The notes under the pieces were generated by a model, which saw only the letters and a list, made by a program, of their open reading frames with translations, made no database searches and was not told where the DNA came from. Made by a program: the position numbers and the translations under genes. Positions 26,692-42,155 of a stretch of 64,000 bases of DNA are shown one piece after another (position 1 is the stretch's first letter; each line of letters opens with the position of its first letter). The DNA comes from Terriglobales bacterium (GTDB lineage: Bacteria; Acidobacteriota; Terriglobia; Terriglobales; Acidobacteriaceae): the NCBI GenBank assembly GCA_035651995.1, contig DASRER010000014.1, positions 62,001 to 126,000 on the forward strand, written 5' to 3'.

Positions 26692-26849
26692 TTAAAGTCC
26701 ACCCAAGCACGGCGTCGTTCTCGAGACTAACTCGCTGCTTTGCGGGGAGTTAGCTGCGTCGAGCTCAAATCGGAACGCGACCTGCGAAGAGGGACAGCAG
26801 TAAATCTTCAGTGTGTGCGGCCCGAAAGGGCACGGGGGCGACGTCCAGC

Positions 26850-28366: not shown

Positions 28367-28849
28367 ATGATTCTCGTCATAGGACTGCACGGTGGAGCAG
28401 AGAAGTGCGCGACGGCGCTCTCGGGCGCGCTCGGGCAGCCGGTGGACACGGCGCACGCGATGCAGGCGGCTGTTGCATTGGCGCGCGCGAACGAGTATGC
28501 CGCCGTAGTGATGGACCAGCAGATGCTCGACCGCGAGGGGCCGGGCGTGGAGACGCTGTTCCGTTACACGAAAACGGCGGTACCGGTGCTGGTGAACATG
28601 GCCATCTCCAGCGCCGACCGGGTACTGCGGGAAGTCCGCTCGGCGCTGCAGCGGCGCGACCGCGAGCAAGCGGCCGCGCTCGATGCTGCCGCGCGCACGC
28701 TGCGTACCGAGCTGAAAGGGGACATTACCGGCATCCTGCTGTCGTCACAGCTTGCGCTCAACGATCCCGCCTTGCCTGCGACGGCGCAAGCGCGCCTGCG
28801 TTCGGTGTGCATGCTCGCCGAGAAAATGCGCGCGCGTCTGGAAGCCTGA
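28367..28849 (+). CDS. Degenerate receiver plus HisKA-like dimerisation protein
   Basis: 160 aa. The N-terminal half (1-95) resembles a receiver with VVMDQQML (47-54, Asp50 retained) but no acidic pocket (MILVIGLHGG). Residues 103-160 resemble a HisKA four-helix dimerisation segment: TELKGDITGILLSSQLAL, where the usual phosphoacceptor His of the H-box is Thr114 and the Pro is Asp119. No ATPase domain follows, so it cannot act as a kinase. It may be a partner or anti-activator for the neighbouring receiver-less sigma54 activator. This is inference from adjacency and matching degeneracy. Confidence 0.75.
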   Translation: MILVIGLHGGAEKCATALSGALGQPVDTAHAMQAAVALARANEYAAVVMDQQMLDREGPGVETLFRYTKTAVPVLVNMAISSADRVLREVRSALQRRDREQAAALDAAARTLRTELKGDITGILLSSQLALNDPALPATAQARLRSVCMLAEKMRARLEA

Positions 28850-29034
28850 TCACGCCCCGCCGTTGATGCGTCAAGGCGCGCCGCAGTGCGCCGCCGCACT
28901 TCCGGCGTTGTCGCCCGCGTTCAGCCCATCCGCACGCAAGTCCTTGCAAGGGCAACGCCCAAAATACGCCAGCATCTAACCTTGCGTTCGGCAAAGGCCG
29001 CATCGGTCGCGGCCATTTACAGGAATTGAGACGA

Positions 29035-29883
29035 TTGCGCATTTTGCTTCAACCCAACGCACCGTCACCAACATCGACCCCAGTAACTGAGAAGGAGGCG
29101 CCGGCCTCGCTCGCGGCGACTGCGCTGGAAACCGAACGCGCGGCGCTGGAGCGCCGCGTGGCCGAGCTCGGGGACTGGTTCCACAACCTGGACCTGCACG
29201 GCGTGGCCACTGCGCCCAATCACTTCCTCGGGGACTATCCACGGGTGAAGTGGAAGAGTCTTGCAGCGTCGATTCCCGCCGACCTGACGGGCGCGACCGT
29301 TCTCGACGTGGGCTGCAACGGCGGCTTCTATTCGGTGGAGATGAAGCGGCGCGGCGCCGAGCGCGTGCTCGGCATCGACGTGGACCAGCGTTACCTGGCG
29401 CAAGCGCGCTTTGCCGCCGAAACCCTGGGACTGGAGATCGAGTTCGAAACGCGCTCGGTGTACGAGGTGGACCAGATCGCGGGGCAGTTCGACTACGTCC
29501 TCTTTATGGGCGTCCTGTACCACCTGCGATATCCGATGTTCGCGCTCGACAAGGTGGTGAAGAAGGTCGGCCGCCAGCTCATCTTCCAAACCATGGTGCG
29601 CGGCTCGGAGAACGCACGCGCATGGGAGAAGGACTATCACTTCTGGAACAAAGGCGTGTTCGCCGACCCGGATTTTCCCTGCATGTATTTCGTGGAGCAC
29701 TCCTACGCGGGAGATCCGACGAACTGGTGGATCCCCAACCGCGGCGCAGCGGAGGCCATGCTGCGCAGCTCCGGGCTGGAGATCGTGGCGCATCCGGAGG
29801 CGGAGACATGGATCTGCGAGCCGCGCACGGCGCGGCGCAATGGGCGCTACGTGCTCGATCTAGAGCTGGAAGGAACGCTGTGA
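29035..29883 (+). CDS. SAM-dependent methyltransferase (CmoB-like fold), first gene of the glycan locus
   Basis: 282 aa. Starts here are TTG 29026 or TTG 29035. The second has AGGA at a better distance. A coiled, charged N-terminus (1-45) precedes WFHNLDLHGVATAPNHFLGDYP. Motif I is TVLDVGCNGGFYSVEM, followed by VLGIDVDQRYLAQA and FDYVLFMGVLYHLRYP, as in the CmoB/TylF-type methyltransferases that recur beside glycosyltransferases. It leads a run of eleven same-strand genes to 42155. Likely substrate is a sugar or a glycan intermediate. Methyl transfer chemistry follows from family. Confidence 0.82.
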   Translation: MRILLQPNAPSPTSTPVTEKEAPASLAATALETERAALERRVAELGDWFHNLDLHGVATAPNHFLGDYPRVKWKSLAASIPADLTGATVLDVGCNGGFYSVEMKRRGAERVLGIDVDQRYLAQARFAAETLGLEIEFETRSVYEVDQIAGQFDYVLFMGVLYHLRYPMFALDKVVKKVGRQLIFQTMVRGSENARAWEKDYHFWNKGVFADPDFPCMYFVEHSYAGDPTNWWIPNRGAAEAMLRSSGLEIVAHPEAETWICEPRTARRNGRYVLDLELEGTL

Positions 29884-29917
29884 TGCTGCCCGCCGGCATG
29901 GCTGCCAAGGAGGTCCC

Positions 29918-30829
29918 GTGGTTGAGGCGGTGATGCTCTGGAACGAGCCCAACAACCTTTCGCACTGGGATTTCAAGATCGATCCCGACTGGCGAATGTT
30001 TGCCGAGATGGCGATCGCGGGAGCGCGAGCGATCCGCCGGACGCATCCCGGGCTGAAGCTGGTGCTGGGAGGCATTTCGCCGATCGATGCGAATTTCATC
30101 CGGCTGCTGGGCGGCCACGGCGTGCTGGACCACGTGGACGTGGTGGCGGTGCACGGCTTTCCGCTGGACTGGAACCACTGGAAGATCGGCGAATGGCCGG
30201 CCAAGCTGGAGGAGATTCGCGCGGTGACGCCGCTGCCGGTGTGGGTGTCGGAAGCGGGCGCGTCGTCGTTCGGGGCGGAAGAAGTGCAGGTGTTCGGGCT
30301 GGAGCGCACCGCCGAGCTGCTGCTGCCGCAGGTGGAACGCGTTCACTGGTACAGCCTGTTTGACCTTCCCGCCACGTGGACGGCGACAACGCGCCACAAG
30401 GAGTCGGAGGGGAGCGCTTACTACCGGCACTATTACATGGGCCTGGTGCGCGAAGACGGAACGCCCAAGCCGGCGGCCGAACGTTTTCCTGAAGGAATGG
30501 GAATCTGCCAGTGGTTCCACTTCGAAGATCCACGGCTGGATGCAGCGGTGGGGTGGATGCGCAAGCTGGGTGCGCGGCGTCTGCGCACCGGAATCAGCTG
30601 GGCGGATTGGTTCCGGCCGAATGCGGAGGCGTGGTTCGACCGGCAGATGGCGGCATTGGAGGACTTTGACGTCACGCTCACGCTGTGTTTCACGCCCGAG
30701 CACTTGGGCATTGCTCCCCACTACACCAGCCCGCCCAAGAACGCGCAGGACTTTGCCGACTTTGCCAGGTGGGCGGTTGGGCGTTATGCGGGCGCCGGGG
30801 CGGCCGCCTGCGGCGGAGGCGGACGATGA
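29918..30829 (+). CDS. Glycoside hydrolase clan A-like (GH39-type) protein, apparently circularly permuted
   Basis: 303 aa. GTG 29918 has an AAGGAGG ribosome site. The chain begins with the beta-4 acid/base motif WNEPNN (Glu10), continues to the nucleophile-type strand VSEAGASSF (Glu112) and HWYSLFDLP. Only then, from about 190, does it show strands that normally open the TIM barrel (FHFEDPRLDAAVGWM, LRTGISWADWF, LTLCFTPEHLG, then FADFARWAVGRYA). The order looks permuted relative to GH39 enzymes. The Gly-rich C-terminus (GAGAAACGGGGR) abuts the next gene with an ATGA overlap. Substrate is unknown. Confidence 0.75.
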   Translation: MVEAVMLWNEPNNLSHWDFKIDPDWRMFAEMAIAGARAIRRTHPGLKLVLGGISPIDANFIRLLGGHGVLDHVDVVAVHGFPLDWNHWKIGEWPAKLEEIRAVTPLPVWVSEAGASSFGAEEVQVFGLERTAELLLPQVERVHWYSLFDLPATWTATTRHKESEGSAYYRHYYMGLVREDGTPKPAAERFPEGMGICQWFHFEDPRLDAAVGWMRKLGARRLRTGISWADWFRPNAEAWFDRQMAALEDFDVTLTLCFTPEHLGIAPHYTSPPKNAQDFADFARWAVGRYAGAGAAACGGGGR

Positions 30830-31944
30830 GCCGCCGCGTGCTGGTCACAGGTGGCGCCGGGTTCGTGGGTTCGCACATGGTGGACGCCCTGCTGGCGCGC
30901 GGTGACGAAGTCACGGTATTCGACAGCCTGTCGCCGCAGGTGCACGGCGCGGCGTTCCCGCGGTACCTGGCGCGCGAAGCCGAGTTCGTGCGCGGCGACA
31001 TGCGCGACATCCGCGCGCTGCGTCGCGTCGTACGCGGGCAGGATGCCGTGTTTCATCTTGCGGCTGCCGTTGGCGTCGGGCAATCGATGTACGAGATCAC
31101 ACACTACGTGGGCGCGAACACGCAGGGAACGGCGAACCTGTTGCAGGCGATCCTCGACGAGCGGCGCCCGCTGGAGAAGCTGGTGGTGGCCTCTTCGATG
31201 TCGATTTACGGCGAGGGGCAGTACCGGTGTGATGCCTGCGGTCCGGTCGCGCCGCCGCCGCGCCCGGCGCTGCAATTACGCGCGCATGACTGGGAGGCGC
31301 TGTGTCCGGCGTGCGGAAGTGTGCTTGCGCCGGTCGCCACGGACGAGAGCAAGCCGCTGCAGTGCACGTCGTACTACGCGCTCTCAAAAAAAGACCAGGA
31401 GGAAATGGTCCTGCTCTTCGGGCGCACGTATGGCGTGCCGGCGGTGGCGCTGCGGTACTTCAACATCTACGGCACGCGGCAGGCGCTTTCCAACCCGTAC
31501 ACGGGTGTGGCGGCGATCTTCGCAGCGCGGCTGCTGAACCGGCGCGCGCCGCTGGTATTCGAAGACGGCAAGCAGACGCGCGACTTCGTGAGCGTGCACG
31601 ATGTCGTGGCCGCCAATCTGCTGGCACTGGACAGCGCGACGGCCGATCAGCAGGCCATCAACATCGGGTGCGGCGAGCCGGTGACCATCCGCGAAGTGGC
31701 GGAGGTGCTGGCGGAGGCCCTGAACATCGAGACGATGCCCGAGATCACGGGCAAGTATCGCGCCGGCGACATTCGGCATTGTTTCGCCGACATTGCGCGG
31801 GCGCGGCAACTCCTGGGCTACGAGCCCAGGCATACGTTCCGCAGCGGCGTGGGCGAGCTGGTGCAGTGGCTGGGCTCGCAGTCAGCAGAAGACCACGCCG
31901 CGGAAGCGGCACAACAGCTCAACGCGTATGGTCTGACGGCCTGA
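30826..31944 (+). CDS. NAD-dependent sugar-nucleotide epimerase with a four-Cys insertion
   Basis: 372 aa extended SDR. It has GGAGFVG (9-15, Rossmann), active-site Ser/Tyr with YYALSK (Tyr184, Lys188), and RYFNIYGTRQ. Between strands it carries an insertion with CDAC (135-138) and CPAC (160-163), a zinc-ribbon-like pair. I recall such an insertion in dTDP-L-rhamnose 4-epimerase-type proteins. The start overlaps the previous stop by 4 bp (ATGA). Likely reaction: C4 or C2 epimerisation of a nucleotide sugar that feeds the glycosyltransferases downstream. The exact sugar cannot be read. Confidence 0.87.
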   Translation: MSRRVLVTGGAGFVGSHMVDALLARGDEVTVFDSLSPQVHGAAFPRYLAREAEFVRGDMRDIRALRRVVRGQDAVFHLAAAVGVGQSMYEITHYVGANTQGTANLLQAILDERRPLEKLVVASSMSIYGEGQYRCDACGPVAPPPRPALQLRAHDWEALCPACGSVLAPVATDESKPLQCTSYYALSKKDQEEMVLLFGRTYGVPAVALRYFNIYGTRQALSNPYTGVAAIFAARLLNRRAPLVFEDGKQTRDFVSVHDVVAANLLALDSATADQQAINIGCGEPVTIREVAEVLAEALNIETMPEITGKYRAGDIRHCFADIARARQLLGYEPRHTFRSGVGELVQWLGSQSAEDHAAEAAQQLNAYGLTA

Positions 31945-31971
31945 ACCAGCGCGGTGGCGTACGAGGGAGTT

Positions 31972-33075
31972 ATGGAAAGCAAAGACCGCGCTCGCTCTGT
32001 CCTCATTTTCGGTGGCGCAGGATTCATCGGCTCGAACTGGGCCCATCGGTTGCTGAAGACGACCGGCGCCGCAATTCATATCTACGACAACCTTTCCCGT
32101 CCTGGGGTTCGCAACAATTTAGAGGGTCTGCGTGAAGCAGCCGGAAAATCGGGCCGGCTGAAGGTCACCGTGGCCGACGTGCGTGACGCGGCGCGGGTGG
32201 AGCGCGCCGTACGGCAGGCCACCGAGATCTATCACCTGGCCGCGCAGGTGGCGGTCACCAATTCGGTGACGAACCCGCGCTACGACTTCGAAGTGAATCT
32301 GATGGGCACGTTCAACGTGCTGGAAGCGGCGCGACGGGCAGGACGTCGTCCGTTTGTTCTGTTCACGTCCACCAACAAAGTCTACGGCAACCTGGAAACG
32401 CGGGCGCGGGTTGCGCGCGGGAAGCGCTGGGAATTCGTCGCGGGTGAGGGCGTGGACGAACGGCAACCGCTCGACCTGCACTCGCCCTATGGCTGCTCGA
32501 AAGGCGCGGCCGACCAGTACGTGCACGACTACGGGCGCATGTACGAGATTCCGACGGTGGTCTTCCGCATGTCGTGCGTAGCCGGACCGCGGCAATTCGG
32601 CAACGAAGACCAAGGCTGGGTCGCGCACTTTCTCTACTCGGCGCTGGCGGGAGCGCCGGTGATCGTGTACGGCGACGGCCGGCAGCTGCGAGACGTTCTC
32701 TACGTGGACGACCTGCTGCGCGCGTTCGAAGCGGTGCGCGACAACCTGCACAGGACTCGGGGGCAGATATACAACGTGGGCGGCGGAGCGGAGAACACCA
32801 TTTCGCTGCTCGAGCTGATGGAGCAGGTGGAACGGCTGACCGGCAAGCCGCTGGAATACGCCTTCGACGATCGGCGTCCCGGCGACCAACTGGTTTACGT
32901 GACGGACACGTCGAAACTGCAGCGCGATACCGGATGGAAGGCGCATGTGAATCCCGCGCTGACGCTGGCACGGATCTACGACTGGTGGAAGCACAACCGC
33001 GAGCTGTTTCCGGTGGCGGCGCCGCGCCGCGCGGAAGTCGTGCCCTGGCCGCATATGTTGCCGAGGCCGGCATGA
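31972..33075 (+). CDS. NAD-dependent epimerase, CDP-paratose 2-epimerase-like
   Basis: 367 aa from ATG 31972 (GGAG 5 bp upstream; the in-frame GTG 31954 is less likely). The dinucleotide motif GGAGFIG is at 14-20. STNKVYG, SPYGCSKGAADQYV (Tyr/Lys active site) and FRMSCVAGPRQFGNEDQGW are the CDP-tyvelose/paratose 2-epimerase hallmarks. With the previous epimerase it would supply two different nucleotide sugars. The stop overlaps the B12-radical SAM start by 4 bp. Confidence 0.87.
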   Translation: MESKDRARSVLIFGGAGFIGSNWAHRLLKTTGAAIHIYDNLSRPGVRNNLEGLREAAGKSGRLKVTVADVRDAARVERAVRQATEIYHLAAQVAVTNSVTNPRYDFEVNLMGTFNVLEAARRAGRRPFVLFTSTNKVYGNLETRARVARGKRWEFVAGEGVDERQPLDLHSPYGCSKGAADQYVHDYGRMYEIPTVVFRMSCVAGPRQFGNEDQGWVAHFLYSALAGAPVIVYGDGRQLRDVLYVDDLLRAFEAVRDNLHRTRGQIYNVGGGAENTISLLELMEQVERLTGKPLEYAFDDRRPGDQLVYVTDTSKLQRDTGWKAHVNPALTLARIYDWWKHNRELFPVAAPRRAEVVPWPHMLPRPA

Positions 33076-34361
33076 AGTACGCCTTGGTCAATCCGAACTG
33101 GAACTTTACCGGCTCGACCTATTTCGGTTGCGCTGATCCTCATCTTCCGCTGGAGCTGATGTTTGCGGCACAGCACCTGCAGCGCACAGGTCACGATGCG
33201 GTGCTCATCGATGCGCAACTGGAAAATCGGACGGCGGGAGAGGTGGGCGAGCAGGTGCGCGCGTTCGCGCCCGATTTCGTGGTGATCCCGACCGCGCCGT
33301 CGTACTTGTTCTGGCGGTGTCCGCCGCCCGAGCTGCGCGTGCCGCGGGAGTGGTTTGCGGCGGTGGCGCCGATGGGCGCGCTGCGAGTGGCGATCGGGCC
33401 GCATCCTTCCGCTACTCCGCTGGCAACTCTTCGCAAGCTGGAGTGCAACGTAGTCATGCGGGGCGAGCCGGACCATGCGCTGGCCGAGCTTGCTTCGAAG
33501 CCCTGGGGCGAAGTGCCGGGCGCGTGCTGGCGGGACGACGAGCGCGACCACGTCTCGCCCGATCTCGCGGTGGTCGATATGAGGCAGCTTCCGTCCCTGG
33601 AGTTTGGCGGCTATCCGCTGGAGCTGCGGCGGCATCGGCATCACGTGTTTCAGGGCGAAGGGCGCGGGGCGGAGCTGGAGTTTGCGCGCGGGTGTCCGTG
33701 GTCGTGCAACTTCTGCAACAAGACGCTGTTCCGCAACAAATTCCGCGAGCGCGAGGTGAACGCCGTACTCGCCGAAGTGGACCAGCTGATCGCGCGCGGG
33801 ATCGATTATGTGTACTTCATCGACGAAACTTTTGGCGCCGGCAAGAACGCGCGCCTTCTGCTGGAAGGGATGGCGGAGCGCAACATCAACATCGGTTTGC
33901 AGACGCGCATCGACCTGTGGAACGAAGAAGCGCTCGACCTGCTGCGGCGGGCACATTGCATTTCGGTGGAGTGCGGCATCGAGTCGATTACCGAGAGCGG
34001 CCGCGATGAGCTGAACAAAGGATGCGGCATGAGTAGCGAGAGGATGGCGGAGCTGCTCATCCACGCGCGGACGCAGATTCCGTGGGTGCAGGCGAACCTG
34101 ATCCTGACCGAGCATGACGATCGCGAGCAGATACGCGCGTTCCAGGAGCGGCTGAAGGCGCGCGGCGTTTGGGTGAGCGAGCCGGTGCCGATGTTTCCGT
34201 TTCCCGGCACGCCGCTGTATCAGCAGATGTTCGGCACGCCCGACGACCGCGCCTGGGAGCGCGCGCACCACTACTACACGTCGGCGTTCGCCGGCAAGGG
34301 ATACAGCGACATTCAGGAGCAACGGCCCGCGGCGATCGAGGACCTGGAATGCACGTACTAG
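33072..34361 (+). CDS. B12-binding-domain radical SAM enzyme of the glycan locus
   Basis: 429 aa. The N-terminal B12-binding-like domain (1-170) has VNPNWNFTGSTYFGCADPH, although a classic DxHxxG is not clear. The radical SAM domain begins at about 200 with the CxxxCxxC motif CPWSCNFC (Cys208, 212, 215), followed by DYVYFIDETFGAGK and a sulfur/Fe-S-poor C-terminus. In this class the cobalamin usually mediates methylation or ring rearrangement of a sugar, lipid or peptide. The gene start overlaps the epimerase, and its stop lies within the next glycosyltransferase (13-bp overlap), so it is tightly coupled to glycan synthesis. Confidence 0.85.
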   Translation: MKYALVNPNWNFTGSTYFGCADPHLPLELMFAAQHLQRTGHDAVLIDAQLENRTAGEVGEQVRAFAPDFVVIPTAPSYLFWRCPPPELRVPREWFAAVAPMGALRVAIGPHPSATPLATLRKLECNVVMRGEPDHALAELASKPWGEVPGACWRDDERDHVSPDLAVVDMRQLPSLEFGGYPLELRRHRHHVFQGEGRGAELEFARGCPWSCNFCNKTLFRNKFREREVNAVLAEVDQLIARGIDYVYFIDETFGAGKNARLLLEGMAERNINIGLQTRIDLWNEEALDLLRRAHCISVECGIESITESGRDELNKGCGMSSERMAELLIHARTQIPWVQANLILTEHDDREQIRAFQERLKARGVWVSEPVPMFPFPGTPLYQQMFGTPDDRAWERAHHYYTSAFAGKGYSDIQEQRPAAIEDLECTY

Positions 34362-35458
34362 TCACGGCAGACACGCTGGGCGGCGTATGGACCTACGCGC
34401 GCGAGCTGGTGACGGGCCTGGTGCGCCGCGGCGTGCGGGTCACGCTGGTGAGCCTGGGCAACATCCCGTCGCCCGAGCAGGCGCAGTGGCTCGAAGGCCA
34501 GCGCGATGTGGATTTTCGTCCCACCGCATTTCGCCTCGAATGGATGCAAGAGGCGCAGCAGGACCTGGATGCTTCCCGTGAGTACCTGCTCGGCGTGGTG
34601 CACGATGTGAAGCCCGACCTGCTGCACCTGAGCCAGTACGCCTACGGAAATCTTGCTTGTGATGTGCCGCGGCTGATGGCGGCGCACAGCGACGTGGTGA
34701 GTTGGTGGGTGAGCGTGCACGGCGAGGAGCCGCGCGACACGGCGTGGATGCGCTGGTATCGCGGCGTGGTCGGCGAAGGTCTGGCTGCGGCCGACGCAGT
34801 GGTCGCGCCGACGCGCTGGATGCTCGATGCACTCGGCGCGTTCTACGCGAGGCCGCGCTGCGGTTCGGTGATCTACAACGGGCGGTCGCCGAACCTGTTC
34901 AATCCGCACCTGAGCAAGGAGGAGATGGCGATCAGCGTGGGCCGCCTTTGGGACGGCGGCAAGCAGGTTTCGCTGCTGGCCGGGCACGAACATCCGCTGC
35001 CGGTGTGGGTGATCGGGCAGGAGAAGCATCCGGACAACGCGCTGGGCGGGGAAGCCGGGTTCCGGGCGGCGGCGAAGAAGAGCGTCTTCTTCAAGGGCGA
35101 GCTGACGCAGTCGCAGCTGCGGCACTGCTACAGCCGCGCCGCGATCTACGCCGCCACGTCGCGATACGAGCCGTTTGGGCTGGCCCCGCTGGAGGCGGCG
35201 CTTTCGCGCTGCGCGCTGGTGGCGAACGACGTGCCCTCGCTGCGCGAGGTCTGGGGGGAGGCGGCGTGTTACTTCCGTCAAAATGATGCCGCCAGCCTGG
35301 CGCAGCAGATTGCGCGGCTGCATGGCGATCGCGACCTGCGCCTTACATATGCCAACCTGGCGTACCAGCGCGCCAAACAGCGCTACTCGGCCGAGCGCAT
35401 GGTGGACGATTACTTGTGCCTGTACCACTCGGTGGTCGGAGCGGAGGTGGCCGCGTGA
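34349..35458 (+). CDS. Glycosyltransferase, GT4 (GT-B fold)
   Basis: 369 aa. It starts MHVLVTADTLGGVWTYARE, a GT-B nucleotide-sugar glycosyltransferase N-terminus with the GG glycine loop. The donor-binding half carries SRYEPFGLAPLEAA (about 272-285), the E(x7)E motif of GT4. Cytoplasmic. It overlaps the radical SAM gene by 13 bp and the next gene by 4 bp (GTGA). Donor and acceptor are unknown. Confidence 0.87.
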   Translation: MHVLVTADTLGGVWTYARELVTGLVRRGVRVTLVSLGNIPSPEQAQWLEGQRDVDFRPTAFRLEWMQEAQQDLDASREYLLGVVHDVKPDLLHLSQYAYGNLACDVPRLMAAHSDVVSWWVSVHGEEPRDTAWMRWYRGVVGEGLAAADAVVAPTRWMLDALGAFYARPRCGSVIYNGRSPNLFNPHLSKEEMAISVGRLWDGGKQVSLLAGHEHPLPVWVIGQEKHPDNALGGEAGFRAAAKKSVFFKGELTQSQLRHCYSRAAIYAATSRYEPFGLAPLEAALSRCALVANDVPSLREVWGEAACYFRQNDAASLAQQIARLHGDRDLRLTYANLAYQRAKQRYSAERMVDDYLCLYHSVVGAEVAA

Positions 35459-36567
35459 AGCCGCTCACCATCCGCTACTTCGCGCATTCATGGGTTTCGG
35501 ACTGGAACCACGGCAACGCGCACTTTCTGCGCGGGCTGGCGCGGGCGCTCGTGCGACTGGGCCATCGCGTGCGCTGCTACGAGCAGCTTGGCGCCTGGTC
35601 GCTGGCCAACCTGATGCGCAGCGAGGGCGAGCGCGCCATCGGCGCGATTGATCAATTTCGCCGCGGGTTTCCGGAGCTGGACATCTGGTTCTACAACAAC
35701 GACGAACACTTCAGCGCGTTCGCGCACCGCGAACTGCGGCACGCCGACCTGGTGATCATCCACGAGTGGAACGACCCGCGCATCGTGAACCAGGTGCTGG
35801 CGCTGAAGGACCAACTGGGATTCCGCGTTCTGCTGCATGACACACACCACCGGGCCTACACCAGTCCGCGCGAAATTCTGAAATTCCATCTGCATCGCTT
35901 CGACGGCGTGCTCACGTTCGGCGAGGCCATCACGCGCATCTATCGCGACGGCTTCGGCGTGCCGCGCGCCTGGACGCTGCACGAGGCGGCGGACATCACC
36001 AGTTTCGTCCCGCTCGACAGGCCGAAGACGAACGACGTGGTCTGGATCGGGAACTGGGGGGATGAAGAGCGCACGCTCGAGCTGGAGGAATTCCTGCTGC
36101 GACCTGCCGAGCAGGTGGGCGCCCGAACCGTGGTGCACGGTGTGCGCTATCCGAGGGAAGCCGTGGAGCGAATGCGGAAAGGCGGGATCGAGTATCGCGG
36201 TTACCTGCCGAACCTGGAAAGCCCGCGCGTCTACGGCGAAAGCAGGGTGACGGTGCACGTGCCGCGGCGGCAGTACAACAATGGCCTGAGCGGCATTCCG
36301 ACGATCCGCGTTTTCGAAGCGCTGGCCTGCGGCGTTCCGCTGGTGTGCGCGCCCTGGCCGGACACAGAAAATCTTTTTTCCGCCGGGCAGGATTACCTGA
36401 CCGCCGTGGACGGACGGGCCATGGGCGCCATGCTGGCAGAACTTAGGCGCGATGACGCGGCACGGCGGCAACTGGCCGCGGCCGGCCTGGCGACGATTCG
36501 CGCACGGCACACGTGCGCGCATCGGGCCGAGCAGTTGGTGAGCATGGTGGAGGAGCTGGGACGATGA
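35455..36567 (+). CDS. GT-B-fold glycosyltransferase
   Basis: 370 aa from GTG 35455 (GTGA overlap). The N-terminal domain has TIRYFAHSWVSDWNHGNAHF, and LHDTHHRAYTSPREI carries several His. The C-terminal domain includes IPTIRVFEALACGVPLVCAPWPDTE, the E...G...P glycosyltransferase loop. It resembles the CgeB/GT1-like proteins that follow, but its central part differs. Substrate unknown. Confidence 0.82.
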   Translation: MKPLTIRYFAHSWVSDWNHGNAHFLRGLARALVRLGHRVRCYEQLGAWSLANLMRSEGERAIGAIDQFRRGFPELDIWFYNNDEHFSAFAHRELRHADLVIIHEWNDPRIVNQVLALKDQLGFRVLLHDTHHRAYTSPREILKFHLHRFDGVLTFGEAITRIYRDGFGVPRAWTLHEAADITSFVPLDRPKTNDVVWIGNWGDEERTLELEEFLLRPAEQVGARTVVHGVRYPREAVERMRKGGIEYRGYLPNLESPRVYGESRVTVHVPRRQYNNGLSGIPTIRVFEALACGVPLVCAPWPDTENLFSAGQDYLTAVDGRAMGAMLAELRRDDAARRQLAAAGLATIRARHTCAHRAEQLVSMVEELGR

Positions 36568-37664
36568 AGATCTTCGTGTTCGGCTCCAGCATCGTTTCGT
36601 CTTACTGGAACGGGGCGGCAACGTACTATCGCGGCATTTACAAGAACCTGGCCGCGCTGGGGCACGAAATTGTCTTTGCCGAACCGGACATCTACCGGCG
36701 GCAGCAGCATCGCGACGACGGCGACTTCAGCTACGTGGAGAGCATCGTCTATCGAACGCCGCGTGACATCGATGCGCTGCTGCAGCGCGCGGCCGACTGC
36801 GACCTGGTGATCAAGCACAGCGGCGTGGGCGCCGATGACGCACTCCTGGAGCGCCGCGTCCTAGATTGCCGCGGACCTGCGCGCGTCGCGTTCTGGGACG
36901 TGGATGCGCCGGCAACGCTGGCGCGCGTGGAAGCCGATCGCGACGACCCGTTTCGCGCGCTCATCCCTGAGTACGACTTCATCCTTACTTATGGCGGCGG
37001 AGCGCCGGTGGTGGACCACTACATGCTTCGCGGGGCGCGGCACTGCATCCCGATTTACAACGCGCTCGATCCGGAGGCGCACTTTCCGGTGCCGGCCGAT
37101 CCTGAGCTGGCGTGTGACCTTGCGTTCGTGGGAAATCGGCTGCCGGATCGCGAGCGGCGCGTGGAGGAGTACTTTCTGCGCGCGGCCGAACTGGCCCCGG
37201 AAATGCGCTTCCTGCTGGGCGGCGAAGGATGGGCAGCGAAGCCTCTGCCGCGCAACGTACGCTGGATCGGGCACGTGGCGACCGCCGACCACAATCGAGT
37301 GAACTGCTCGGCGCGCGTGGTGCTGAACATCAATCGCGAATCCATGGCCGAGGTTGGGTTTTCTCCGCCCACGCGCGTGTTCGAAGCCGCCGGCGCGGGC
37401 GCGTGCCTGATCACTGACGCGTGGTCCGGGCTTGGCACGTTCTTCGAGCCGGGCGCGGAGGTCCTGCCGGCACGGAACGCGCAGGAAATTGTCCAGCTGT
37501 TGCGGAGAACGCCGGAGGGAATGGCGCGAGCGATTGGCGAGGCGATGCGGTCGCGCGCGCTGCGCGAGCATACCTACGAGCGGCGCGCGCGGCTGGTGCA
37601 CAGCGTGCTGTGCGGCATCGGGGCCGAGGCAATCGCGGAAGTCAGCGAAGTCAGAGCAGCATGA
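36564..37664 (+). CDS. CgeB-like glycosyltransferase
   Basis: 366 aa. MKIFVFGSSIVSSYWNGAAT opens a GT-B fold that parallels the next gene (MKIVIFGLAISSSWGNGHAT). They share PxTxVFEAA in the C-terminal half (FSPPTRVFEAAGAGACLITD here), DVDAPATLARV and a mid-protein FVGNRLPDRERRVEEYF. The pair looks like a tandem duplication. Overlaps the preceding stop by 4 bp. Confidence 0.82.
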   Translation: MKIFVFGSSIVSSYWNGAATYYRGIYKNLAALGHEIVFAEPDIYRRQQHRDDGDFSYVESIVYRTPRDIDALLQRAADCDLVIKHSGVGADDALLERRVLDCRGPARVAFWDVDAPATLARVEADRDDPFRALIPEYDFILTYGGGAPVVDHYMLRGARHCIPIYNALDPEAHFPVPADPELACDLAFVGNRLPDRERRVEEYFLRAAELAPEMRFLLGGEGWAAKPLPRNVRWIGHVATADHNRVNCSARVVLNINRESMAEVGFSPPTRVFEAAGAGACLITDAWSGLGTFFEPGAEVLPARNAQEIVQLLRRTPEGMARAIGEAMRSRALREHTYERRARLVHSVLCGIGAEAIAEVSEVRAA

Positions 37665-38764
37665 AGATAGTCATTTTTGGGCTTGCGATCAGTTCGTCGT
37701 GGGGCAATGGACACGCCACCACGTATCGGGCGCTGGGGCGCGCGCTGCATGCGCGCGGGCACCGGATCGTGTTCTTCGAACGCGATTGGGAGTGGTACCG
37801 CGACAACCGCGACCTGCCCGAGCCCGATTTCTGCGATCTCCGGATCTATGAGGAGTGGCCAGACGCGTTGCCGGCGGCGCGACGCGCGTTGCGCGATGCC
37901 GACCTGGCGATAGTCGGCTCGTACTTTCCCGACGCGGCGCGCGCGGTCGGGCTGGTGCTGGATTCAGCCGCGCTGAAGGCGTTCTACGACATCGACACGC
38001 CGGTCACGGTGGCCGAGCTGCGCCGCACTGGCCACGCGCCGTACCTGCGGCGCGAGGAGATACCGGGATTCGATCTGTACCTGAGTTTTACCGGCGGCCC
38101 CATGTTGCGCGAGCTGGAGACGGTGTTCGGGGCGCGGCTGGCGGCGCCACTTTATTGCTCGTTCGACCCGGCAATGTACCGGCCGCGGCCGCCGGCGCGC
38201 CGCTTCACCTGCGACATGAGCTACATGGGCACGTATGCCGCCGATCGCCAGCCGAAGGTCGACGAACTGCTGGGGCGGACGGCGACCGGAATGCCGCACG
38301 GCAAGTTCATTGTGGCGGGTTCGCAATATCCAAAATCGGTTCGCTGGCCGGCGAACGTAAAACGCATCGTCCACCTGAATCCGAGGTGGCATCCGCTGCT
38401 CTACAGCTCTTCGCGGCTCACCCTGAACGTGACTCGTCGCGACATGGTGCTGGCCGGATACTCACCGTCGGTGCGTCTGTTCGAAGCAGCCGCCTGCGGC
38501 GCGACAATCGTTTCCGACAACTGGCCAGGGCTGGAGGCATTTTTTGTCCCCGGGAAAGAGATCCTGCTGGCCAGCAGCGCCGACGACGTGCGCCGTTACC
38601 TCGACGGCATGGACGCAGCCGAGCTGCGCCGCATGGGCGCCGCCGCCCGCGAGCGCGTGATCGCCGAACACACCAGCGATCGGCGGGCGCGGCAACTCGA
38701 ACTGCTGGTGGAGCGCGCGTCGCTGCGGGCGGCGGAGGCCGCGTCGGCGCTGGCGCCGGCGTAG
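37661..38764 (+). CDS. CgeB-like glycosyltransferase, paralogue of the previous gene
   Basis: 367 aa. Same architecture as the 36564 gene: FVGSS-like start, DIDTPVTVAELRRTG, TCDMSYMGTYAADRQPKVDEL, YSPSVRLFEAAACGATIVSD and a RERVIAEHTSDRRARQLE C-terminal helix. ATGA overlap with the previous gene. Residue identity looks moderate by eye, so the duplication is not recent. A 104-bp gap before the next gene is the only real break in the locus. Confidence 0.82.
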   Translation: MKIVIFGLAISSSWGNGHATTYRALGRALHARGHRIVFFERDWEWYRDNRDLPEPDFCDLRIYEEWPDALPAARRALRDADLAIVGSYFPDAARAVGLVLDSAALKAFYDIDTPVTVAELRRTGHAPYLRREEIPGFDLYLSFTGGPMLRELETVFGARLAAPLYCSFDPAMYRPRPPARRFTCDMSYMGTYAADRQPKVDELLGRTATGMPHGKFIVAGSQYPKSVRWPANVKRIVHLNPRWHPLLYSSSRLTLNVTRRDMVLAGYSPSVRLFEAAACGATIVSDNWPGLEAFFVPGKEILLASSADDVRRYLDGMDAAELRRMGAAARERVIAEHTSDRRARQLELLVERASLRAAEAASALAPA

Positions 38765-38868
38765 CCCGCGTCCAACGGATTCGGAACCTGGCGCATCCTA
38801 AGGTATGTCCCCGCCCTTCGTCTCACGCTTGGGGCACGCACGCATACTTTTGTCAGAAAAGGAAGCGC

Positions 38869-39945
38869 ATGCGAGTCGCTCTGATCGCGCCCCCGTTCAT
38901 CCCTGTGCCGCCGAAGGTGTATGGCGGAACCGAGCTGTTCATTGCGCACCTGGCGGAGGGTCTGCGCGAGGGCGGGATCGAGCCGGTGGTGTACTGCAAC
39001 GGCGAGTCTACGGTGAACGTGGAGCGGCGCTGGATGTACGAGCGGGGGGAGTGGCCGATCCGCGGTGAGATCTACGACAACCTGAAAGACATGAACCACA
39101 CCGCGTGGGCAGTGGCCGACGCCCGCAAGAGCTGTGACCTCATCCATCTGAACAACGCGTCCGGGCTGGTGGCTTCGCGTTTTGCGACCCAGCCATTCGT
39201 TTACACCATTCACCATCCGCACAACGACGGGCTGAGCAGCTTCTATGAATGCTTCCCGCAGACGCAGTACGTCACCATCAGTGAGTTTCAGCGGCGGCGT
39301 GAAAGCATGCCGAGGGTGCGCACCATCCACCACGGCATCGATGTCTCGTTTTACAGTTTCCGCGAGAAAAAGCAGCCGTACGTCAGCTTTATCGGGCGAA
39401 TCGCGCCCATCAAAGGCACGCATTTGGCGATTGCGGCGGCGCAACGCGCCGGCGTCCCGCTGAAGATAGCGGGCGAAGTGCAGCCCGTCTTCCGCGACTA
39501 CTTCGAGCGCGAGATCAAGCCGCACATCGACGGGACATTTATCGAATACATCGGCGAAGCGGACCTGGCCGCCAAGAACGAATTACTGGGCAATTCGCGC
39601 GCCATGCTGTTCCCGGTGCAGTGGGATGAGCCCTTCGGCCTGGTCATGGTGGAAGCGATGGCCTGCGGAACGCCGGTGCTGGCACTGCCCGGTGGATCGG
39701 TGCGCGAAATCGTTGCGGAGGGCATCTCCGGGTACGTGTGCAAGGACGTGGAAGAGATGGCGGCGCGCATCGGCAACCTGGAAATCGAGCCCGGGCTGGC
39801 GCGCCAGTACGTGGAACAGAACTTTTCGCTGGCGCGCATGGTGGCCCAGTACGCGGAGTTGTACCGCGAGATACTCGAGCATCCGCAACCGCCGGCGAAG
39901 ACCTCCCGGAGCAGCGCGCTGTCGGAGCAATCGGCGATCGCATGA
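38869..39945 (+). CDS. Glycosyltransferase, GT4
   Basis: 358 aa with AAAAGGAAG before the ATG. The N-terminus IAPPFIPVPPKVYGGTELF carries the Pro-rich and GGxE loop of GT4 enzymes. FIGRIAPIKGTHLAI and FPVQWDEPFGLVMVEAMACG supply the donor-site motifs, including the E(x7)E signature. The stop overlaps the amyloglucosidase-like start by 4 bp. This is a textbook GT4 and is better conserved in motif than the four before it. Confidence 0.9.
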   Translation: MRVALIAPPFIPVPPKVYGGTELFIAHLAEGLREGGIEPVVYCNGESTVNVERRWMYERGEWPIRGEIYDNLKDMNHTAWAVADARKSCDLIHLNNASGLVASRFATQPFVYTIHHPHNDGLSSFYECFPQTQYVTISEFQRRRESMPRVRTIHHGIDVSFYSFREKKQPYVSFIGRIAPIKGTHLAIAAAQRAGVPLKIAGEVQPVFRDYFEREIKPHIDGTFIEYIGEADLAAKNELLGNSRAMLFPVQWDEPFGLVMVEAMACGTPVLALPGGSVREIVAEGISGYVCKDVEEMAARIGNLEIEPGLARQYVEQNFSLARMVAQYAELYREILEHPQPPAKTSRSSALSEQSAIA

Positions 39946-42155
39946 GCACGCAGTTTGCCCCATCACCAGAGGGGCTGATTGAAATTCCGTCGCCGTACGT
40001 CGAGCCGCGCGTCGCCTTCCAGGCGCAGGAGCCGCGGAAGGTCAACAACCTCACCCTGATCGACGGCAAGACGTTTCTCTCCACCACCGTTGCGGGCGAC
40101 ATCTCGCCGGCCGGCGCGCCCGATGTGGGCTTTTTCCACGACGACACGCGCTTCCTCAGCCACCTGGAGCTGCGCGTGGGCGGCGCTCGCGCGGTGGTGC
40201 TTTCGTCGAGCACCGAAAAAACCTTCACCTCGCACATCGAGCTCACCACCGGGAATCTCGCGCTGCGCGAGTCGTTCGACCTGCCCGAGAACACGGTGCA
40301 CATCCGGCGCGAGCAACTGCTGGTGAACGACGTCTTCTGCGATTCGATCAGCTTTGACAACTACAACCGCGTGCCGGTGGAGTTCATGGTGGAGATGGCA
40401 TTCGGCGCCGACTTCGTAGACGTGTTCCAGGTGCGTGGCTGCGTGCGGCGGGTTCATGGCAAGTACTTCAAGCCGGTGCATCACGGGAAGCTGCTGGAGT
40501 TCCATTACGCCGGGCTGGACGGCACGATGCGGCAGACCCGAATCGAGATGGCGCCCGCGCCTTCACACACGGAAGACTACGCGGCGCACTGGGACGTGCG
40601 GCTGGAGCCGGGAAAGCGCGTGCAGTTGCAGATATGGGTAACGCCCAGCGTGCAGGGCCGGAAGTCGCGAGCGCGCCAGGTGGAGTTCGCCGAAGGCGAG
40701 AGCCTGCGCCGGCGGACCCAGGGCGAGTGGGAAGCGCAATCAACGCATTTCTCCAGCAATCAGAAGGTGTTTGACGCGGCGCTGGCCACGGCCACCGGCG
40801 ACTTCCACGCGCTGCTCATTCCTGACGGAGACCAGCGCATCATCGCGGCCGGCATACCCTGGTTTGCCACCATCTTCGGGCGCGACTCGATTGTTGCCGC
40901 GTATCAAACGCTGGTGCTGAATCCGCAACTGGCCTGCGACACCCTGCGCGTCCTGGCGCGGCGCCAGGGCACGCGCTATGACGACTGGCAGGACGAGGAA
41001 CCCGGCAAGATCCTGCACGAGTATCGCGAAGGCGAGATGACGCTGGACGGCGAGATGCCATTCCATCCGTACTTCGGCACGGTGGACGCAACTCCGTTGT
41101 TCCTCATCCTGCTGGGCGAAACCTGGAACTGGACCGGTGACGAGCAGCTGGTCCGCGATCTGCTACCGGCGGCGTACAAGGCGCTGGACTGGATTGACCG
41201 TTACGGCGATTTGGACGGCGACGGTTTCGTGGAGTATCAGCGGCGTTCGAAACAGGGTCTGACCAATCAGGGATGGAAGGATTCCTGGGACGCGAACATG
41301 CATCGCGACGGCACGCTGGCGCGTTCACCCATCGCGCTGGTCGAGGTGCAGGGCTACGTTTACGACGCGAAGTACCGGATGGCGTCGGTGCTGCGCGCGA
41401 TGGGAGACTCGAAGCGCGCCGATGCGTTGCGCAACGAGGCCGCTGCGCTGGCCAAACGCTTCGAGAAAGCCTTCTGGATGCCGAAGGAAGGCTTTTATGC
41501 GATGGCCCTGGATGCCGACAAGCGGCAGTTGCAGGTCATATCGTCGAATCCCGGGCACCTGCTGTTCACGCGCATTCTCGGCCGCGAGCGGGCGCGGACG
41601 GTTGCCGCGCGCATGATGCAGAGCGACATGTTCACCGGCTGGGGATGGAGGACGCTCTCGTCGGCGGAGCCGGTGTTCAACCCGCTCAGCTACCACCGCG
41701 GATCGGTGTGGCCGCACGACAACTCGATCGTGGCGCACGGCATGGCGCTGAATGAAATCCGCAAGCCCGCCCTGCAGTGCATGACCACGCTGTTCCAGGC
41801 GGCGCTGAACTTCCGCGACTACCGCTTGCCGGAGCTGTTCTGCGGCATCCAGCGGCGGCAGCACGATGCGCCGGTGCACTACCCGGTGTCGTGCTCTCCG
41901 CAGGCCTGGGCATCGGGAGCATTTTTCCTGATGCTGGCATCGGTGCTCGGTATTCGCCCGAGCGCGCACAAGCGGGAGCTGAACATCGTGAACCCGATTC
42001 TGCCGGACTGGATGGAACACTTCAGCATTCGCAACCTGCGCATCGGCAACAGCCGCGTGGGTCTGGACTTCAACCGCCATGGCGAGCGAACGTTCTGCAA
42101 CGTGGTGGACGTGGGGGGCGAGAGACTCTCGGTGAACGTGGTGTTCAGGCGCTAG
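39942..42155 (+). CDS. Amylo-alpha-1,6-glucosidase-like glycosidase (GDE_N_bis + six-hairpin domain)
   Basis: 737 aa. The N-terminal beta-domain (about 30-245, TLIDGKTFLSTTVAGDISP, FFHDDTRFLSHLEL) corresponds to the GDE_N_bis module. The C-terminal alpha-toroid domain holds GIPWFATIFGRDSIV, WKDSWDANMH, MPKEGFYAMALDADKRQ and SPQAWASGAFF. Such proteins trim alpha-1,6 branches or act on trehalose-like glycans. With the glycosyltransferases it may process the product of the locus. Convergent and overlapping with the thioesterase by 4 bp. Confidence 0.9.
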   Translation: MSTQFAPSPEGLIEIPSPYVEPRVAFQAQEPRKVNNLTLIDGKTFLSTTVAGDISPAGAPDVGFFHDDTRFLSHLELRVGGARAVVLSSSTEKTFTSHIELTTGNLALRESFDLPENTVHIRREQLLVNDVFCDSISFDNYNRVPVEFMVEMAFGADFVDVFQVRGCVRRVHGKYFKPVHHGKLLEFHYAGLDGTMRQTRIEMAPAPSHTEDYAAHWDVRLEPGKRVQLQIWVTPSVQGRKSRARQVEFAEGESLRRRTQGEWEAQSTHFSSNQKVFDAALATATGDFHALLIPDGDQRIIAAGIPWFATIFGRDSIVAAYQTLVLNPQLACDTLRVLARRQGTRYDDWQDEEPGKILHEYREGEMTLDGEMPFHPYFGTVDATPLFLILLGETWNWTGDEQLVRDLLPAAYKALDWIDRYGDLDGDGFVEYQRRSKQGLTNQGWKDSWDANMHRDGTLARSPIALVEVQGYVYDAKYRMASVLRAMGDSKRADALRNEAAALAKRFEKAFWMPKEGFYAMALDADKRQLQVISSNPGHLLFTRILGRERARTVAARMMQSDMFTGWGWRTLSSAEPVFNPLSYHRGSVWPHDNSIVAHGMALNEIRKPALQCMTTLFQAALNFRDYRLPELFCGIQRRQHDAPVHYPVSCSPQAWASGAFFLMLASVLGIRPSAHKRELNIVNPILPDWMEHFSIRNLRIGNSRVGLDFNRHGERTFCNVVDVGGERLSVNVVFRR

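Follow-up and report, generated by a model that had tools for sequence, protein, structure and literature searches.

A conserved glycan locus of soil bacteria whose B12-fold radical SAM enzyme gives way to two dehydrogenases in some genomes

AprD4 of apramycin biosynthesis shares its two-domain fold with the radical SAM enzyme that is the subject of this report. The accessible part of PMC5461906 describes AprD4 as a diol dehydratase that acts on a pseudodisaccharide and is paired with a reductase partner. NeoN, BtrN and HygY, the radical SAM epimerases and dehydrogenases of aminoglycoside pathways, each work on one carbon in the ring of a sugar or cyclitol (accessible part of PMC10991966; for HygY, the title of a reference given there). 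Action on a single ring carbon is also the role proposed below for the enzyme of this locus. NeoN, BtrN and HygY fall into different radical SAM subfamilies, which lack the B12 fold, and related pathways use an NAD enzyme for the BtrN step. The families TIGR04295 (B12_rSAM_oligo) and TIGR04290 (meth_Rta_06860) are already catalogued, both as hypothetical equivalogs without a stated function; the model name B12_rSAM_oligo suggests that its curators had noticed an oligosaccharide context. Neither accession is named in the open-licence literature searched, which also gave no match for a B12-binding radical SAM enzyme in a glycosyltransferase, oligosaccharide, inositol or epimerase context.

Members of both families occur together in a locus of a Terriglobales bacterium, within a stretch of 64,000 nucleotides that is called the window here. 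The locus comprises the following genes:

MT, 29026..29883, + strand: SAM-dependent methyltransferase of the TIGR04290 family; start TTG 29026 or 29035
GH, 29918..30829, + strand: GH39-like glycosidase, circularly permuted, 303 aa; GTG start after AAGGAGG
SDR1, 30826..31944, + strand: NAD-dependent SDR of the sugar-nucleotide epimerase/dehydratase type with a CxxC...CxxC insert; Pfam Epimerase 1.9e-50
SDR2, 31954..33075, + strand: CDP-tyvelose 2-epimerase-like SDR; start GTG 31954 or ATG 31972
rSAM, 33072..34361, + strand: B12-fold radical SAM enzyme, TIGR04295
GTa, 34349..35458, + strand: GT4-type glycosyltransferase; Pfam Glyco_transf_4 4.1e-16, Glyco_trans_1_4 4.6e-15
GTb, 35455..36567, + strand: Glyco_trans_1_2 glycosyltransferase, PF13524 1.4e-34
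GTc, 36564..37664, + strand: Glyco_trans_1_2 glycosyltransferase, PF13524 3.3e-37
GTd, 37661..38764, + strand: Glyco_trans_1_2 glycosyltransferase, PF13524 3.4e-37; the conserved core ends here
GTe, 38869..39945, + strand: GT4-type glycosyltransferase, PF00534 2.9e-23; lineage-specific add-on
GDE, 39942..42155, + strand: amylo-alpha-1,6-glucosidase-like glycoside hydrolase, add-on; PF14742 GDE_N_bis 5.6e-52, PF22422 2.7e-17, PF06202 7.1e-11

Pfam and NCBIfam matches recover all eleven same-strand genes with the functions named in the first-pass annotation, and its remark that the set contains no flippase, polymerase or exporter holds. No such gene was recognised among the annotated recurrent neighbours either; the neighbour families c8, k9 and k10 have no Pfam match. 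The 13-bp overlap that had been reported lies between rSAM and GTa, but the 4-bp overlaps number six instead of seven (GH/SDR1, SDR2/rSAM, GTa/GTb, GTb/GTc, GTc/GTd and GTe/GDE). Nor is the locus gap-free, as had been stated: MT and GH are separated by 34 bp, SDR1 and SDR2 by 9 or 27 bp, depending on the start codon chosen, and GTd and GTe by 104 bp. The last of these gaps coincides with the end of the conserved core found by comparison, and the locus consists of a nine-gene core (MT, GH, SDR1, SDR2, rSAM, GTa-GTd) and a lineage-specific GTe/GDE add-on. GTe follows directly behind GTd in 7 of the 13 loci with both, all seven in the family of the window, and GDE adjoins GTe in 8/8 loci with both. 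An NtrC-type gene upstream of MT prompted a search for a sigma-54 promoter, which gave no match with two or fewer mismatches in 28850-29034; across the window, 69 matches were observed versus 84 expected, which is no excess. No sigma-70 promoter match was found in 28700-29100.

The core, whole or partial, is present in Acidobacteriota, Alphaproteobacteria, one myxobacterium, one gammaproteobacterium and one Nitrospirales genome. This comparison of neighbourhoods bears out the earlier suggestion of similar loci in proteobacteria and extends the range beyond them. The genes adjoin each other more often than expected by chance: among distinct loci holding both partners, SDR2 and rSAM are adjacent in 53/53, rSAM and GTa in 51/52, and GTa and GTb, like GTb and GTc, in 66/67. 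The counts cover 81 loci including the window, with L176, L180 and L205 left out as duplicates of L054, L058 and L067, and with L074-L131 (at most 30% identity) excluded. In a class-wide set of 399 genomes, rSAM occurs in 38 and GH in 41, and all 38 rSAM genomes are among the 41; the Fisher tests of association ignore the relatedness of the genomes. In seven of the 38, five of family f2 as well as G227 and G304, rSAM lies apart from the glycosyltransferases, a splitting first seen in this analysis. Homologues in contexts without glycosyltransferases had been named beforehand as the observation that would speak against a single functional glycan unit. All seven apparent cases retain GH and GTa-GTd at another genomic site, and the locus therefore passes as a functional unit; rSAM as an enzyme independent of glycosyltransferases was ruled out. 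A viral origin was also discarded, as the rSAM patterns had no match in viral contigs.

The radical SAM gene itself is exchangeable. Genome G232 has its genes in the order of the f6 clusters, except that an MDR dehydrogenase and a Gfo/Idh/MocA oxidoreductase occupy the place of rSAM between SDR2 and GTa. Nine rSAM-less Rhizobiales genomes with GTb, the marker of the cluster in genome searches, also carry this pair. It forms adjacent genes in all ten rSAM-less genomes with the glycosyltransferase core (E <= 1.4e-144), of which six supplied the search profiles, leaving G446, G522, G594 and G612 as independent cases, and nine came from a set selected for inositol-phosphate synthase. The pair is found in 0/49 rSAM genomes (best match there 5.5e-36), and none of the 59 tested genomes with either enzyme set carries both. 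On a quick tree of SDR1, GTb and GTc (60 rows, SH-aLRT support only), from which the fragments L051, L059, L070 and L204 and all loci lacking one of the three genes were left out, the state changes six times between rSAM and pair. Five of these changes are forced by starred branches, so that the exchange occurred at least five times on this tree, while the remaining gene set is alike between neighbouring branches. In NCBIfam, the pair comes closest to inositol 2-dehydrogenase and scyllo-inosose 3-dehydrogenase, with scores well short of either cut-off, and its best PDB relatives are DgpA and a ketose reductase, followed by inositol dehydrogenases and sorbitol dehydrogenases.

The exchange hints at what rSAM does, and its family and fold set the frame for reading it. 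The protein reaches 615.4 bits against TIGR04295 (curated cut-off 400), and MT 373.2 bits against TIGR04290 (curated cut-off 300); the second-best NCBIfam match of MT is CmoB with 71 bits, far under the CmoB cut-off. The cluster motif CxxxCxxC (residues 208-215) is present in 59/59 rows. The B12-binding Pfam family PF02310 matches at 26.2 bits, below its cut-off of 32.1, and DxHxxG, a motif often missing from radical SAM members, occurs in 7/59 rows. The closest folds to the predicted model (pLDDT 86) are AprD4, TsrM, MgmA and OxsB. In the PDB, the rSAM profile has its strongest sequence match in AprD4 (2.9e-13), which also heads the VIA-align ranking (Z 27.6, rmsd 3.1, 373 aligned residues, 21% identity), but TsrM, MgmA and OxsB tie with it in the structural comparison.

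The first-pass annotation had suggested that cobalamin radical chemistry gives the oligosaccharide an unusual C-C or methyl modification. In this reading, rSAM would be a C-methylase of the cobalamin-dependent kind (class B), and the locus would make a C-methylated glycan. The PDB titles of TsrM and MgmA name them as methyltransferases, and the fold therefore does not exclude methylation by rSAM; CysS has this fold as well, and a B12-binding match exists, though below threshold. The new finding that rSAM is repeatedly swapped for two dehydrogenases nevertheless favours an oxidation-reduction step over C-methylation, since MDR and Gfo/Idh/MocA dehydrogenases are not known to form C-C or C-methyl bonds. 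The locus already has a separate methyltransferase, the likely agent of methylation, and AprD4, the best sequence match, is described as a dehydratase in the accessible part of its source. C-methylation by rSAM is thus improbable. That same match and the first place of AprD4 by VIA-align would suit a diol dehydratase giving a deoxy sugar after reduction, with the pair reaching the same or a similar product otherwise. No dehydration by MDR and Gfo enzymes alone is known, however. AprD4 also works with a reductase partner (accessible part of PMC5461906), while no extra, AprD3-type reductase recurs across the surveyed rSAM loci, where single dehydrogenase families occur in at most four, and we consider dehydration unlikely.

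The pair could also yield a different product than rSAM, the two being alternative tailoring enzymes that create two glycan chemotypes, as in variable O-antigen loci. Mutual exclusion fits this equally, the pair occupies the rSAM slot only in G232 and lies on a contig other than that of GTb in G594 and G612, and two rSAM-less genomes with partial clusters and neither enzyme set (G285, G015) fit better here. Variable genes would, however, be expected to be absent or doubled at times, whereas the pair is present in 10/10 rSAM-less GTb genomes and never joined by rSAM, amid an otherwise similar gene set; we accord two chemotypes little probability. The redox step is most likely the inversion of a ring hydroxyl.

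Our favoured reading, held at about even confidence, is a pathway, probably cytoplasmic, to a small O-methylated (pseudo-)oligosaccharide, in which rSAM is a redox-neutral ring-carbinol epimerase that the MDR and Gfo enzymes replace functionally. SDR1 and SDR2 would prepare nucleotide sugars, GTa-GTd would join the units, the methylation would fall to MT, and the permuted GH may trim or remodel a beta-linkage. The radical enzyme would remove a hydrogen atom and return one on the opposite face, so that a single carbinol in the ring of a sugar or inositol unit is inverted. In the pair lineages, the same step would proceed by hydride transfer, the MDR dehydrogenase oxidising the alcohol and the Gfo/Idh/MocA enzyme reducing the ketone. 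The comparison demonstrates conservation, co-occurrence, splits, the permutation and the swap of one gene for two; we infer the equivalence of the exchanged enzymes, as well as the epimerisation, the substrate, the location and the order of steps. The earlier suggestion of a lipid-linked oligosaccharide finds no positive support, as no lipid-carrier sugar transferase turned up among the annotated genes. On this proposal, a gene set conserved in soil bacteria probably assembles a small sugar chain of an unusual kind within the cell; the glycan appears to be widespread in soil-dwelling and plant-associated bacteria, and no name for it was found. Annotation families known by number only would gain a testable function, and the same pathway would run with either a radical enzyme or two ordinary dehydrogenases. 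The exchange makes the reaction guessable and testable through soluble, presumably oxygen-tolerant proteins, sparing the difficult radical SAM enzyme. Only tentatively do we extend this to TIGR04295 as a whole, as a family for redox-neutral ring-carbinol inversion in a cyclitol or oligosaccharide, interchangeable with a two-enzyme NAD route, and to an undescribed O-methylated oligosaccharide of inositol and pentose made in several soil phyla.

Such a composition is prompted by neighbours newly noted here: most alphaproteobacterial loci carry an inositol-phosphate synthase and a UDP-xylose synthase. The former occurs in 10 of 11 Rhizobiales genomes with rSAM versus 45 of 238 without it, and within 11 kb of rSAM in 8 of the 11; UDP-xylose synthase lies behind GTd in 25/26 loci with both. 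The inositol link rests on Alphaproteobacteria because the synthase is nearly universal in the tested Acidobacteriota (59/61), where it was uninformative as a correlate. Two Bradyrhizobium loci from photosynthetic strains, L068 and L069, hold the synthase too, which would suit bradyrhizose, an inositol-fused monosaccharide of O-antigen, as the product. The accessible part of a 2016 paper called the bradyrhizose genes unknown and proposed one candidate cluster, about 40 kb from an O-antigen ligase gene (PMC4743980). In B. aeschynomenes (G400), the cluster lies on contig C1, where no Wzy_C match, and hence no neighbouring ligase, was seen; the cluster also spans several phyla and has four glycosyltransferases, all of which makes bradyrhizose a very remote candidate for the product.

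The glycosidase had rightly been called permuted. The best PDB match of its profile is PslG of Pseudomonas aeruginosa (2.2e-07), itself a GH39 enzyme, followed by GH39 beta-xylosidases (0.08 to 0.9). Profile positions 197-294 align with PslG 21-129 and positions 2-169 with PslG 131-306; the canonical GH39 order of barrel strands is thus rotated in the window protein, with the acid/base strand first. The two GH39 glutamate motifs (the NEP acid/base and the later nucleophile) are each found in 52/53 permuted rows, and E10 and E112 are invariant in a 26-row alignment (26/26). The predicted model (pLDDT 89) superimposes on PslG with an rmsd of 2.9 over 176 aligned residues at 24% identity. Foldseek gave weak part-matches, as expected of a permuted chain, so that absence of a family there is not exclusion. 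Of the family profiles, only PF11790 matches, below cut-off, and NCBIfam has none, and the protein is described as GH39-like without assignment to GH39. No circularly permuted GH39-like barrel is reported in the open-licence literature searched, and one that keeps both catalytic glutamates appears to be new here.

A zinc ribbon was rejected as a core feature of SDR1, because the insert with both CxxC motifs occurs in just 19/64 rows. The best PDB matches of SDR2 are 9rl0 (1.6e-75) and 1orr (2.7e-68), the former being the CDP-tyvelose 2-epimerase TaTyvE, which it matches end to end. Of the motifs given for CDP-tyvelose 2-epimerases in the accessible parts of PMC7851689 and PMC13098431, the Thr/Tyr/Lys triad and TNK segment are present in 62/62 rows (TNK and YGxSK). 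Among the CDP-binding residues Trp207, Trp210 and Phe211, the first and last are kept (DQGWxxxF, 62/62), but position 210 is His in 61/62 rows and Asn in 1/62. Because the CDP-binding Trp210 is replaced by His, SDR2 may use a nucleotide other than CDP.

The locus comprises eleven genes, for a methyltransferase (MT, TIGR04290), a glycosidase (GH), two epimerase-type proteins (SDR1, SDR2), a radical SAM enzyme (rSAM, TIGR04295), five glycosyltransferases (GTa–GTe) and a debranching-type hydrolase (GDE), in an assembly of 3.66 Mb and 48 contigs.

26811-28247: NtrC-type regulator, just upstream of the locus
28367-28849: small receiver-like protein, as read from the sequence, just upstream of the locus
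29026-42155, + strand: eleven-gene locus, in the order MT, GH, SDR1, SDR2, rSAM, GTa, GTb, GTc, GTd, GTe, GDE

The gene list of the first-pass annotation was right in substance, as the same eleven one-direction genes were recovered and assigned to families. Its 13-bp overlap was confirmed, but the 4-bp overlaps number six, one fewer than claimed, and "gap-free" is too strong a description, since the genes at the three other junctions stand 34, 9 (or 27) and 104 bp apart. Relatives of the NtrC-type regulator also occur upstream in loci L040 and L041; a search for a sigma-54 site before MT found none.

Of 399 genomes in the window's class, 38 have a TIGR04295 match, 37 of them exceeding the family cut-off. 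A scan of named genomes yielded at least 22 close loci (L052-L073), whose hosts are Acidobacteriota, Rhizobiales, Acetobacteraceae, Roseomonas, Caulobacteraceae, Polyangiaceae, an unplaced alphaproteobacterium, a Thiohalomonas and a Nitrospirales genome. Neighbourhood surveys defined a core of nine genes (MT, GH, SDR1, SDR2, rSAM and GTa–GTd). Of 81 distinct loci, 31 have all nine on a single fetched stretch; the others run into a contig end or the 20-kb limit, represent one half of a split locus or miss a gene. Where both genes occur, adjacency holds for SDR2-rSAM in 53/53, rSAM-GTa in 51/52, GTa-GTb and GTb-GTc each in 66/67, GTc-GTd in 62/65, SDR1-SDR2 in 49/56, MT-GH in 37/45 and GH-SDR1 in 23/49 cases. 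GTe immediately follows GTd in seven of the 13 loci with both, all seven from the window's own family. A nucleotidyltransferase (c10) and a family without Pfam match (c8) also recur.

The first-pass annotation had said that homologues in unrelated contexts without glycosyltransferases would refute the functional unit, and such cases seemed at first to have turned up. In five genomes of family f2, rSAM lies beside MT without glycosyltransferases, in four of them together with SDR2, and in G227 and G304 it lies beside SDR2 and UDP-glucose dehydrogenase, away from the glycosyltransferases. However, all seven split genomes hold GH elsewhere, next to GTa–GTd, and the unit stands; SDR1 is found there in five and was not seen there in G390 and G304. 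A GH profile search of the 399 genomes found a copy in 41, including all 38 rSAM genomes; the three without rSAM are G232, G285 and G015, the last with a weaker, canonical-order copy. GH and rSAM also lie on different contigs in G225, G093, G048 and G323, which may reflect a true split or an assembly break. Directly 5' of MT, two split f2 loci carry a GDPD-family phosphodiesterase gene (L048:7015-7896; L049:8069-8863). Each split f2 genome (G281, G322, G355, G384, G390) has two inositol-phosphate synthase matches, most tested f1 genomes having one, and one copy in G384 lies about 7 kb from GH.

In some genomes, rSAM is exchanged for two adjacent genes. The cluster of G232 reads SDR1-SDR2-X-GTa-GTb-GTc-GTd-phosphatase-GTd-nucleotidyltransferase-MT-GH, matching family f6, where X is an MDR alcohol dehydrogenase followed by a Gfo/Idh/MocA oxidoreductase; the rSAM search of the class genomes gave no match in this genome (88% complete). 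Among Rhizobiales, the order of Bradyrhizobium aeschynomenes, rSAM occurs in 11 of 249 genomes. A GTb profile was searched in 45 Rhizobiales genomes with inositol-phosphate synthase but without rSAM, together with four rSAM genomes, and matched at E <= 1.4e-150 in nine of the former and all four of the latter; the nine are conditioned on the synthase because the set was chosen for it. The fetched stretch contains the MDR gene in six of the loci from these nine genomes, and the Gfo gene too in five of the six.

When 80 whole genomes were searched, all ten rSAM-less GTb genomes had the two genes side by side at E <= 1.4e-144. No such pair was found in the 49 rSAM genomes, whose best paralogues score 6.5e-34 and 5.5e-36, in the two partial-cluster genomes G285 and G015, or in the 19 controls, whose GTb check covered nine in one search and three in another. 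The profile rows came from six of the ten pair genomes, G446, G522, G594 and G612 supplying none. In eight of the ten, pair and GTb are no more than 12 kb apart; in G594 and G612 they are on different contigs. On a tree of SDR1, GTb and GTc with 60 rows (49 rSAM, 10 pair, 1 neither; quick search, SH-aLRT only), six changes of state are counted, at least five of them forced by starred branches, and shuffles average 9.4. Alphaproteobacterial rSAM and pair clusters interleave on it, with otherwise similar gene sets.

The exchange itself is an observation; the reaction is what we infer. A single radical SAM enzyme would replace two enzymes of hydride-transfer families, and the pair would oxidise and then reduce, which on a ring alcohol would amount to epimerisation. 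K111, D192 and H196, which we take to be catalytic in the Gfo/Idh/MocA family, are invariant in the Gfo alignment. Aminoglycoside pathways include radical SAM enzymes that epimerise or dehydrogenate sugars and cyclitols, according to the excerpted text of PMC10991966. The nearest solved relative of rSAM by sequence is AprD4 of the apramycin pathway, whose substrate is given as paromamine in an excerpt of PMC5461906; by structure, AprD4 (Z 27.6), TsrM (27.2), MgmA (27.0) and OxsB (26.7) are not separable.

Candidate building blocks are indicated by accompanying genes. In Rhizobiales, inositol-phosphate synthase (PF01658) occurs in 10/11 rSAM genomes versus 45/238 others (Fisher p 1.3e-6, uncorrected for kinship), and in eight of the 11 it lies within 11 kb of rSAM. 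Of 31 distinct alphaproteobacterial loci, 23 carry the synthase and 24 a UDP-glucuronate decarboxylase (UDP-xylose synthase; PDB 2b69 match at 6.5e-115); L070, L173 and L202 have neither at the locus. Among loci with both genes, synthase and histidine phosphatase are neighbours in 20 of 21, and the decarboxylase comes after GTd in 25 of 26. The synthase is present in 59 of 61 Acidobacteriota tested, and a cluster copy would therefore be unneeded there. SDR2 shares its catalytic features with CDP-tyvelose 2-epimerases, but where these have the CDP-binding Trp210 it has His in 61 of 62 rows (features as in excerpts of PMC7851689 and PMC13098431). A relative converts several nucleotide sugars back and forth between their gluco and manno forms, according to the former excerpt. 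Together, these findings suggest inositol, pentose and hexose as candidate units.

GH (303 aa) begins at the barrel strand bearing the acid/base glutamate. A profile of 26 relatives matches its closest PDB relative, Pseudomonas aeruginosa PslG, in two blocks of swapped order (whole-sequence E 2.2e-07): positions 197-294 correspond to PslG 21-129 (weak, 9.1 bits) and 2-169 to 131-306 (22.9 bits). In the predicted structure (pLDDT 89, pTM 0.88), residues 1-220 superpose on PslG 156-360 with 176 aligned residues, 24% identity and an rmsd of 2.9, and other barrels equal or slightly exceed PslG in Z. The permuted form is found in one piece in 53 of 81 loci, each glutamate motif being present in 52 of the 53. 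Six loci (L033, L035, L036, L055, L150, L173) hold a paralogue with canonical-order matches, which, alongside permuted copies within clusters, is independent evidence for the permutation. In all except L150 it shares one open frame with SDR2, as in four f6 loci:

L033:7919-9844: canonical GH39-like domain and SDR2 in frame
L035:10329-12245: the same
L036:10556-12496: the same
L055:8020-9975: the same

These f6 fusions have lost both catalytic glutamates (acid/base Q, H or R; nucleophile Q or A), which marks them, as judged from the residues, as a dead glycosidase domain joined to a sugar-nucleotide epimerase; the L173 fusion keeps both. The unfused L150 copy has lysine at the nucleophile position. 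L150:5427-11900 (f8) is a reduced cluster of SDR1, canonical GH, GTb, GTc and a hydrophobic membrane-like protein, and searches of its genome found neither rSAM nor the pair.

TIGR04295 and TIGR04290 are both already in NCBIfam, and this kind of locus had therefore received curators' notice; neither accession was found named in the open-licence papers searched. New here are the core and add-on structure, the genome splits, the GH permutation, with canonical paralogues that have degenerated, and the finding that the pair repeatedly takes the place of rSAM. The locus was rated as a glycan pathway with unusual enzymology, not as a new kind of system.

SDR1 (30826-31944) contains a CxxC...CxxC insert, present in only 19 of 64 SDR1 rows, that may bind zinc. 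An acidic protein of 90 aa that matches no Pfam family (L180:12659-12937 and relatives) occurs in nine distinct alphaproteobacterial loci, near CBS, DUF2267, DUF1003 and histidine-kinase genes, each in single loci, which look like stress genes.
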